From NCBI GenBank assembly GCA_902532195.1, contig CACAHE010000004.1:1-64000 (forward strand): a stretch of 64,000 bases of DNA. The letters run 5' to 3'. A program made the position numbers and the translations under genes. This document shows, piece by piece, positions 10,045-24,593 of this stretch. The DNA comes from an uncultured Pelagibacteraceae bacterium (GTDB taxonomy: Bacteria; Pseudomonadota; Alphaproteobacteria; Pelagibacterales; Pelagibacteraceae). The notes under the pieces were generated by a model, which had not been told where the DNA came from, did no database searches, and worked only from the letters and a program-made list of their open reading frames with translations. Each line of letters begins with the position of its first letter. Within the stretch, counting starts at the first letter, position 1.

Positions 10045-10074
10045 CTTGAAAATATTGCTTTATGTCTTTATATG
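10045..10074 (+). promoter_or_regulatory. Candidate sigma32 promoter for groESL
   Basis: CTTGAAA at 10045-10051, 14-nt spacer, then CTTTATATG; the -10 is a partial match to CCCCATATA. Confidence 0.5.
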
Positions 10075-21983: not shown

Positions 21984-24062
21984 ATGAAAGTACCACAACT
22001 TCAAAAGAAACCCGAATTAAAATCTTGTCACAACACAAGCTGGGAAGATAATTATAGTTGGATACATCAATCAAATATTCTGGAAGTTTTAAGAGATAGT
22101 TCAAAACTTGCCCCTGAAGTGAAGAAATACTTAGAGGAAGAAAATTCTTATACTGAACACCATTTGAGAGACACTAAAAATACACAAAAAAAATTATTTA
22201 ATGAGATAAAAGGAAGAATAAAATTAGATGATGAGTCTCTTCCGTATAAAGATATTAGATATGAATATTGGACAAAAACAACAACTGAAGGAAATTATTC
22301 AATTAAACTTAGAAAAAAGATTGGAACAGATAAAATTGAAGAAATATGGAATGGAGATAAAGAAAAAGAAAAGCTTAAAACTGAATATTTTGGATTAGGA
22401 GATTTAGAAGTTAGTTTTAACGACAAGTATCTTGGTTATTCTTTAGATCTTAAAGGTTCGGAATATTATACAATTTTTATAAGAAATATTGAGACAAAAG
22501 AATTAATTACAGAAAAAATAGAAGAAACGAGTGGAAGTATCGAATTTAGTTTAGATGATCAATATATATTTTACTCAAAGTTAGATGCAAATCATAGACC
22601 AAGAAAAATATTTAGGCATAAATTAGGAACTCCAGTAAAAGAAGATAAATTAATTTTTGAGGAAAAAAGTGAAGCATTCACAGTTAACATTGGTTTGAGT
22701 TCAGATGAAAAATATTATTTTATTTCTACATCAGATCACAGTACTTCTGAACAATATTATTTTCCAGTTGATGAGGAAAATCCTAAACCAAAGTTAATAA
22801 AAGAGAGAAAAAGAGGAATTATCTATTCTGTAAATTCATGGGATGGTTATTTTTATAATCATACTAATGAAAATGCTGAAGATTTTAAAATAGATAGATG
22901 TAAAGATTTATCAAATCAAAAATGGGAAAGTTATATAGCTGCAAAAAATGAAGTTTTAATTGGAAGCTTAGTTTTTTTTAACAATTGGATAATTCGATCT
23001 GAAGTTTCTGAAGCATTAGGAAGATTATTTGTAAAAGATCTAAAAAAAAATATAGAAGAAGAGTTAATTTTCGCTGATGAAAAAGTTATAGTACCAGGAG
23101 TTTCTTCAGTCCAAAAAGATAAAAATACTGATTTTGTATATTTGTCCTACTCATCGCCAAAAACTCCAGGCAGAACTTATTTATACAATTTGAAGACTAA
23201 AGATAAAAAACTAGTAAAAGAACAAGAAATTCCTTCGGGTCATGACCCAGATAAATATATTGTTGAAAGGCTTGAATGCCCTTCGCATGACGGAAGAATG
23301 GTTCCAATAACTATTACAAGACACAAAAAAACTAAAATAGATGGATCTGCAAACGTATTATTATATGGATATGGTTCTTACGGTAATTCTATGTCTCCAG
23401 GATTTTCATCAACAAGATTAAGTCTAATTGATAGAGATATTATTTGGGTAACAGCTCATATTAGAGGTGGACTGGAAAGAGGAATGAAGTGGTGGAAAGA
23501 AGGAAAGCTTCTTAATAAAAAAAATACCTTTGAAGACTATATTGCTGTCGGTAAATATTTAATTGAAAAAAAATATACTTCAAAACAAAAAATAATTGGA
23601 ATGGGAGGTTCTGCTGGTGGACTATTAATGGGAGTGGTGGTTAATCAAGCGCCAGAATTATTTTTAGGAGTAATTATGGCTGTACCATTTGTTGATTCGC
23701 TTACCACCAATCTTGACCATTCTTTACCATTGACTGTTGGAGAGTTTGATGAGTTCGGAAATGCCAAGGATAACAAAGAACACTTTGATTATATTTATTC
23801 CTATGCGCCTTATAATAATATAAAAAAAATGGATTATCCTCACATATTAATCACAACTAGTTTAAGTGACAATAGGGTTTTATTTGATGAGCCTGCAAAA
23901 TTTACTGCAAAACTAAGAGACTTTAAAACTGATAATAATTTATTATTATTAAAAACTGAAATGAATGCTGGTCATGGTGGAAAATCTGGAAGAGATGGTG
24001 CTATAGAAGAAATTGCTCTTGATTATGCATTTGCATTAAAAATTTCAAATCAAATTTCTTGA
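21984..24062 (+). CDS. ptrB: Oligopeptidase B / prolyl oligopeptidase family (S9A)
   Basis: GMGGSAGGLLMG catalytic Ser, YGYGSYG, AHIRGGLERG, NAGHGGKSGR. Confidence 0.94.
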   Translation: MKVPQLQKKPELKSCHNTSWEDNYSWIHQSNILEVLRDSSKLAPEVKKYLEEENSYTEHHLRDTKNTQKKLFNEIKGRIKLDDESLPYKDIRYEYWTKTTTEGNYSIKLRKKIGTDKIEEIWNGDKEKEKLKTEYFGLGDLEVSFNDKYLGYSLDLKGSEYYTIFIRNIETKELITEKIEETSGSIEFSLDDQYIFYSKLDANHRPRKIFRHKLGTPVKEDKLIFEEKSEAFTVNIGLSSDEKYYFISTSDHSTSEQYYFPVDEENPKPKLIKERKRGIIYSVNSWDGYFYNHTNENAEDFKIDRCKDLSNQKWESYIAAKNEVLIGSLVFFNNWIIRSEVSEALGRLFVKDLKKNIEEELIFADEKVIVPGVSSVQKDKNTDFVYLSYSSPKTPGRTYLYNLKTKDKKLVKEQEIPSGHDPDKYIVERLECPSHDGRMVPITITRHKKTKIDGSANVLLYGYGSYGNSMSPGFSSTRLSLIDRDIIWVTAHIRGGLERGMKWWKEGKLLNKKNTFEDYIAVGKYLIEKKYTSKQKIIGMGGSAGGLLMGVVVNQAPELFLGVIMAVPFVDSLTTNLDHSLPLTVGEFDEFGNAKDNKEHFDYIYSYAPYNNIKKMDYPHILITTSLSDNRVLFDEPAKFTAKLRDFKTDNNLLLLKTEMNAGHGGKSGRDGAIEEIALDYAFALKISNQIS

Positions 24063-24086
24063 AAATATAGAATTAGTCCCCATATA
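24058..24086 (+). promoter_or_regulatory. Sigma32 promoter of hsp20
   Basis: CTTGAAA (24058-24064) - 13 nt - CCCCATATA (24078-24086); matches the heat-shock sigma consensus; overlaps ptrB stop codon. Confidence 0.9.
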
Positions 24087-24091
24087 AAATA

Positions 24092-24141
24092 TGTAAGTTG
24101 CCTAATGGGGCTTACAAAATAAACTTGCTTAAAAAAGGAGG
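24092..24141 (+). promoter_or_regulatory. Candidate ROSE-like RNA thermometer in hsp20 5' UTR
   Basis: Hairpin I TGTAAG(24092-24097)/CTTACA(24111-24116); hairpin II CTTGCT(24124-24129)-TAAAAA-AGGAGG(24136-24141), pairing UUGCU with the SD. Confidence 0.65.
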
Positions 24142-24146
24142 ATATT

Positions 24147-24593
24147 ATGACAAGTAAGGATCTATCTATATTCAACTCATTAAGACCTTTTTCAATTGGT
24201 TTTGACGACATGTTTGACCAATTTGAAAGCATGTTGGGAAATGGAGGTTTGAGCACACAATCAAACTATCCACCATACAACATAAGAAAAGCTGGAAAGG
24301 ACAAATACGCAATAGAAGTTGCTCTTGCTGGTTTTAACAAAAAGGATGTTGAAGTTGAGTTTGAAGACAATTTATTAACTATAAGAACAAAACAAGTTAA
24401 TAAGTCTGAAGATAAAAATGAAGATGGTGAAATTCTTCATAAGGGTATTTCTCAAAGACAATTTGCTAGATCATTTACAATTGCAGATGATGTAAAAGTA
24501 GGTGGTGCTGAGTTAAAAGATGGTCTTTTGACTATAGCATGTGAAAGAATTGTGCCTGAGTATAAGAAAAAAAAGCTTATTGAAATAAAATAA
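24147..24593 (+). CDS. Small heat-shock protein Hsp20/IbpA family
   Basis: YPPYNIRKAGKDKYAIEVALAGFNKKDVEVEFEDN..LTI alpha-crystallin domain; strong SD AGGAGG. Confidence 0.96.
   Translation: MTSKDLSIFNSLRPFSIGFDDMFDQFESMLGNGGLSTQSNYPPYNIRKAGKDKYAIEVALAGFNKKDVEVEFEDNLLTIRTKQVNKSEDKNEDGEILHKGISQRQFARSFTIADDVKVGGAELKDGLLTIACERIVPEYKKKKLIEIK

Follow-up and report, generated by a model that had tools for sequence, protein, structure and literature searches.

A putative two-hairpin, ROSE-type RNA thermometer in the leader of hsp20 from SAR11 bacteria

The leader of the hsp20 gene in the window, a stretch of 64,000 nucleotides from an uncultured Pelagibacteraceae bacterium (contig CACAHE010000004.1), is very probably a short, AU-rich RNA thermometer of the ROSE type with two hairpins, as judged from sequence comparison and predicted folding. 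SAR11 is among the most abundant groups of ocean bacteria, with a streamlined genome and few known regulators; if this putative assignment is true, a conserved thermometer on SAR11 hsp20 would directly, and testably, link seawater temperature to protein output, and natural variants of the element are available across many species. As such, it would be new for the SAR11 lineage. The earlier note knew of no ROSE element in this lineage, and the open-access papers searched contained none from SAR11; a survey of structured Pelagibacter RNAs published in 2009 makes no mention, in its main text, of heat shock, of Hsp genes, or of thermometers. No data on the expression, structure probing, or transcription start of SAR11 hsp20 came to light.

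All features described below are on the + strand. The open reading frame of hsp20 (24147..24593) encodes an IbpA-like small heat-shock protein of 148 amino acids, related to Hsp20 proteins of solved structure; its score against NCBIfam IbpA was 100 bits, under the IbpA equivalog cut-off of 212, and its relatives were from Pelagibacteraceae. A sigma32 (RpoH)-type promoter was found at 24058..24085, consisting of the -35 element CTTGAAA (24058-24064), an N13 spacer, and the -10 element CCCCATAT (24078-24085). The spacing between TTGAA and the -10 element was the same in 142 of 145 hsp20 leaders, and the gap from the end of the -10 element to hairpin I was 7 nt in 132 of them, the bases of the gap being variable in sequence. 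The exact promoter pattern was not unique in the window genome (G000; incomplete, approximately 0.97 Mb), with three matches and one in the reversed control; rpoH is encoded in this genome and scored over its curated cut-off. Because the gap between the -10 element and hairpin I was constant, the predicted transcription start was placed at the base of hairpin I, position 24092 (± ~1 nt), from which a leader of approximately 55 nt would be transcribed. Both the sigma32 promoter just upstream and the leader of this length had been proposed in the earlier note and agreed with the promoter geometry, and the predicted start would keep the CTTGCT segment inside the transcript. The same promoter spacing was present at groES in the window (10045-10073, CTTGAAA-N13-TCTTTATAT), with no UYGCU opposite the Shine-Dalgarno (SD) sequence of that gene.

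Ten base pairs, interrupted by a single bulged G (24100), and a UAAU loop (24103-24106) made up hairpin I (24092..24116): in the window, TGTAAGTT, the bulged G, and CC on the 5' side were paired with GG and GGCTTACA on the 3' side. The TGTAAG/CTTACA stem described previously was present at these positions, but the stem was longer than claimed, by virtue of the 10 pairs and the bulged G, which is also found in the Rfam ROSE_3 consensus. In a plain MAFFT alignment, 94.5% of the cells were paired and double changes were found at 7 of the 10 pairs; there were 59 doubly changed cells, compared with 26 in the best slid control. Alignments fitted to a covariance model (CM) are biased towards structure, and their values are given beside the plain MAFFT counts: 99% of cells paired with 54 double-change cells, and 99.5% with 47 when distant loci were added. 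Seven to eight pairs carried double changes across the alignments. Conservation of the structure of hairpin I was strong: the sequence varied and the pairing was kept.

The 5' arm of hairpin II is the anti-SD strand CTTGCTT (24124..24130), containing the ROSE core UUGCU; it faces AAGGAG(G) across a 4-nt loop, the 3' arm being the SD sequence AAGGAGG (24135..24141), with which it paired in leader-only folds. U(U/C)GCU was found in 139 of 139 distinct Pelagibacteraceae leaders (137 UUGCU and 2 UCGCU; with the preceding base, CUUGCU and CUCGCU, respectively), set in a variable AU-rich spacer, and AGGAG was located 5-9 nt 3' of UYGCU in all 139. The opposition of UUGCU to AGGAGG, as well as the positions and sequence of the two-hairpin leader (24092-24141) upstream of hsp20, had been given correctly in the earlier note. 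The MAFFT alignment of all leaders placed the CCTTGCTAA subtype one base out of register, and the CM-fitted alignments were therefore used to count the pairs of hairpin II; no compensatory change was found in them, with or without the distant loci. Four of the five pairs never varied, and the sole change was U-G to C-G in the genus g6, giving the ROSE core UCGCU. Compensatory substitutions, on the presence of which the reading had been made to depend, were thus many in hairpin I and none in hairpin II, and the putative hairpin II is supported by its invariance and its likeness to the family, not by covariation. Two registers of this hairpin, that of the earlier note with G opposite G and that of Rfam with G127 bulged, were near-isoenergetic in the window; in 25 of the 139 leaders, the last G of the SD was missing (AGGAGT/AGGAGA), and of the two registers it is the one with the bulged G that retains the lower C-G pair there.

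Public genomes yielded 80 relatives of hsp20, every one of them titled Pelagibacteraceae or Pelagibacter. The leader was kept in every one with enough upstream sequence, as well as in other genera of Pelagibacteraceae, which bore out the expectation that it is conserved among relatives. When the window genome was searched with the covariance model, the hsp20 site alone was strong (81 bits; next, 20.7), and no ROSE leader was seen on the genome's own rpoH. Two inverted copies of one hsp20 leader and gene (L004 and L005) were located on contig CABYKS010000011.1, possibly as an assembly artefact. In a genome listed as 8% contaminated, a further hsp20 of divergent sequence carried a separate element (L241; G985:C13:7294-7350), and this gene may belong to another organism.

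No Rfam family was at or over its gathering threshold in the window. ROSE_3 (RF02523) scored 25.4 bits against a gathering cut-off of 43, and the window leader is not a member of ROSE_3 by this curated cut-off; the best SAR11 relative, at 35.1 bits, was also under it. On the other hand, chance would not account for the pattern: ROSE_3 was the top of 4227 Rfam families at the hsp20 leader (E 0.0027 in 351 nt) and reached a genome-wide E of 7.7e-6 in one relative, and the core was kept in all 139 leaders. The alignment extended over the full model (positions 1-69 of 69), including both hairpins and the start codon, in the window and in relatives. ROSE_3 was also the sole family to recur among 20 SAR11-order loci and five distant loci, always at full length, matching three of the five distant ones. 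Sub-threshold matches of rli60, MicA, and snoRNAs at the hsp20 leader were not seen again in relatives and were dismissed as chance.

A covariance model constructed from 21 leaders (R1) was searched against 389 genomes of the class and gave five matches outside the family, four of them directly 5' of hsp20 genes and the fifth directly 5' of rpoH. A broader model (R2), containing alphaproteobacterial leaders only, gave three matches across 398 genomes of the phylum, one of which was a Pseudomonas-type ibpA leader (G770) that Rfam ROSE_3 itself scored at 67.1 bits, over the cut-off of 43; the alphaproteobacterial model therefore recovered a curated ROSE_3 member in the reciprocal search. In a further 30 genomes, ten strong matches of R2 were read out, all just 5' of hsp20. 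Strong matches outside SAR11 all lay ahead of hsp20, apart from those ahead of rpoH in one genus. The ROSE-like reading of the earlier note was accordingly upheld, with the window itself sub-threshold: from the architecture, core motif, gene context, bulge, and reciprocal search, the SAR11 leader very probably belongs to the same class as ROSE_3. Short ROSE elements of alphaproteobacteria and Pseudomonas would then be joined into one recognizable class, and the covariance model finds members missed by the Rfam cut-off, including leaders 5' of rpoH. The latter two-hairpin elements, directly upstream of the sigma32 gene (L188, G562:C90:15880-15941; L198, G326:C9:1473-1535), were from two species of one distant alphaproteobacterial genus and had a hairpin I with a bulged G and CUUGCUU opposite the SD, behind a promoter that looked sigma70-like; the papers searched describe no ROSE-type leader for rpoH. 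In the family f2 of the order, hsp20 leaders were not detected by R2. By eye, these leaders had a hairpin with a bulged G and, after it, AATCGCTTAAGGAGGATT; in L134, L136, and L139, TTTAATCGCTTAAGGAGGATTAAA would form an SD hairpin that is longer and has a UCGCU core.

The ROSE-like elements of Pseudomonas, demonstrated experimentally to be thermometers, are 61-62 nt long and have two hairpins and a sigma32 promoter; in the cold, pairing of the SD within their hairpin II keeps translation repressed (PMC3669281). The SAR11 leader shared with the ROSE_3 element of Pseudomonas ibpA the two hairpins, a leader of approximately 55-62 nt, a sigma32-type promoter, the bulged G in hairpin I, UYGCU opposite AGGAG, an IbpA-type gene, and a start codon just downstream. 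It differed in its AU-rich, weaker hairpin II with a 4-nt loop and A-U closing pairs, in the UAAU tetraloop of hairpin I, in its score below the cut-off, and in the constrained codons 2-4 (see below). The variation between U and C in SAR11 UYGCU agrees with the consensus core U(U/C)GCU (PMC3669281). This anti-SD core and a small heat-shock gene were also common to rhizobial ROSE (ROSE1 of Bradyrhizobium hspA) and E. coli ibpA, although these classical elements have three to four hairpins (PMC3669281), whereas the SAR11 leader has two. In the meningococcal fHbp thermometer (PMC4999090), coding sequence takes part in the structure at the ribosome site, as is predicted for SAR11; the anti-RBS strands of fHbp lie in the coding region, while in SAR11 the coding strand is complementary to the anti-SD strand and not to the SD itself.

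Codons 2-4 of hsp20 (ACA AGT AAG; 24150..24158) showed no synonymous change in 142 distinct genes from Pelagibacter and the related genus g8. They were the sole codons without synonymous change among 73 degenerate, amino-acid-conserved ones (permutation P ~1e-5, a guide only, as the 142 genes share ancestry). AGT and AAG are both disfavored, accounting for 9% of Ser codons and 21% of Lys codons, respectively. Within this segment, AAGTAAG (24152-24158) complements CTTGCTT over 7 bp with one G-U pair; leader subtypes overall had 6-8 bp with the coding strand, including 7 bp in the main subtypes ACUUGCUU and CCUUGCUAA and 6 in five AACUUGCUAA leaders. A general effect on codons at the 5' end was set aside: groEL starts in 30 genomes were without such a pattern, with few invariant codons, scattered. 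From these comparisons, an RNA-level constraint is seen to reach into the coding region of hsp20, over the first three codons after the start, and AAGUAAG may supply a competitor for CUUGCUU. Neither this unexpected constraint nor the competing pairing had been remarked on in the earlier note. Since the coding-strand complement was absent from g6, g462, f2, and most distant loci, it was regarded as an extension and not as part of the core element.

When the leader alone was folded, the ROSE_3 fold was obtained for the window and the commonest subtype, and the core pair probability of hairpin II in the window was 0.99 at 5°C and 0.90 at 45°C. Mean SD pairing of 115 leaders was 0.81 and 0.71 at these temperatures, a shallow predicted melting. 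Nearest-neighbor parameters miss the non-canonical pairs of ROSE, and these values are therefore no guide to a melting point or to how the coding strand competes. The CCUUGCUAA subtype reached only ~0.4 in the ROSE register because its CCUU can pair with AAGG instead. When codons 2-5 were added to these short fragments, the nearest-neighbor model moved CUUGCUU to AAGUAAG and exposed the SD at all temperatures. With 45 nt of coding sequence, other folds, inconsistent among relatives, were preferred, and these were not used for the temperature response.

In the proposed mechanism, RNA polymerase with sigma32 would initiate at the base of hairpin I, and this hairpin, supported by covariation, would be the first to fold; as a stable stem with a bulged G at the 5' terminus, it may protect the 5' end or guide folding. 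At low temperature, CUUGCUU, with its invariant core, is predicted to pair imperfectly with AAGGAG(G) and to mask the SD; warming would open the weak AU-rich helix and allow the 30S subunit to bind. By analogy with Pseudomonas, Hsp20 would then be made mainly under heat stress, in addition to induction by sigma32. In Pelagibacter and g8, AAGUAAG of codons 2-4 can, by its complementarity, capture the CUUGCUU strand, and this capture probably tunes the balance between the masked and unmasked states.

Several results did not favor a thermometer: no SAR11 score was at the Rfam gathering cut-off, hairpin II was without compensatory change, the predicted melting was shallow, and the model preferred CUUGCUU:AAGUAAG over SD masking once codons 2-5 were included. 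The last of these would fit a bistable switch, in which CUUGCUU alternates between the SD (masked) and AAGUAAG of codons 3-4 (SD free in the loop), and the ratio of the folds, not melting, sets translation. This explanation, which could add to a thermometer, is possible but doubtful. It is consistent with the lack of synonymous variation in codons 2-4, with the use of the disfavored AGT and AAG, and with the 7 bp kept by both main subtypes; in the only two genes with Arg at codon 4, the codon was AGG, by which pairing with CUUGCUU was retained. However, the coding complement is missing in the groups named above, ACA (codon 2) is constrained yet outside the helix, the fixed AGT pairs less well than AGC would, and cooling strengthens the coding helix, the opposite of what a simple heat switch would need. 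The more far-reaching proposal, that the Pelagibacter ROSE is a bistable RNA sharing its anti-SD strand with codons 3-4 such that synonymous codon choice sets the temperature response, is likewise tentative.

It is improbable that the leader serves chiefly as a site at which Hsp20 itself binds, autorepressing translation as E. coli IbpA does, with temperature sensing secondary. In E. coli, IbpA contacts the 5' UTR of its own mRNA via R93, and Y34, R97, and K98 are also needed (PMC10474464). SAR11 Hsp20 is of the same gene type as these gammaproteobacterial proteins and, compared by residues alone, conserves the equivalents of Y34, R93, and R97; constraint at the sequence level, including codons 2-4, would also suit a protein-binding site. 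On the other hand, the position of K98, at which an alanine mutant loses repression in E. coli, is Ser in SAR11, hairpin I varies freely in sequence with its pairing kept, and autorepression by IbpA in E. coli works together with the thermometer, not as a replacement for it. Even less credible is the view that hairpin I is a 5'-end mRNA stabilizer next to an ordinary strong SD, and that the complementarity of CUUGCU to AGGAG is incidental. The restriction of covariation to hairpin I and the location of this hairpin at the predicted 5' end would fit such a role, but CUUGCU (or CUCGCU) persisted amid a variable spacer, UYGCU recurred ahead of hsp20 in distant families and of rpoH, and the ROSE_3 match was reciprocal.

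Apart from hsp20, a conserved GTGCATTTATTTAAATGATGCAC-type hairpin 5' of the SD was observed in several SAR11 genomes (L175, G000:C1:60126-60185; L239, L240, and L242), with weak CM matches; the gene behind it starts with ME(L/V)EAAKMIGAG and is probably atpE (ATP synthase c subunit).
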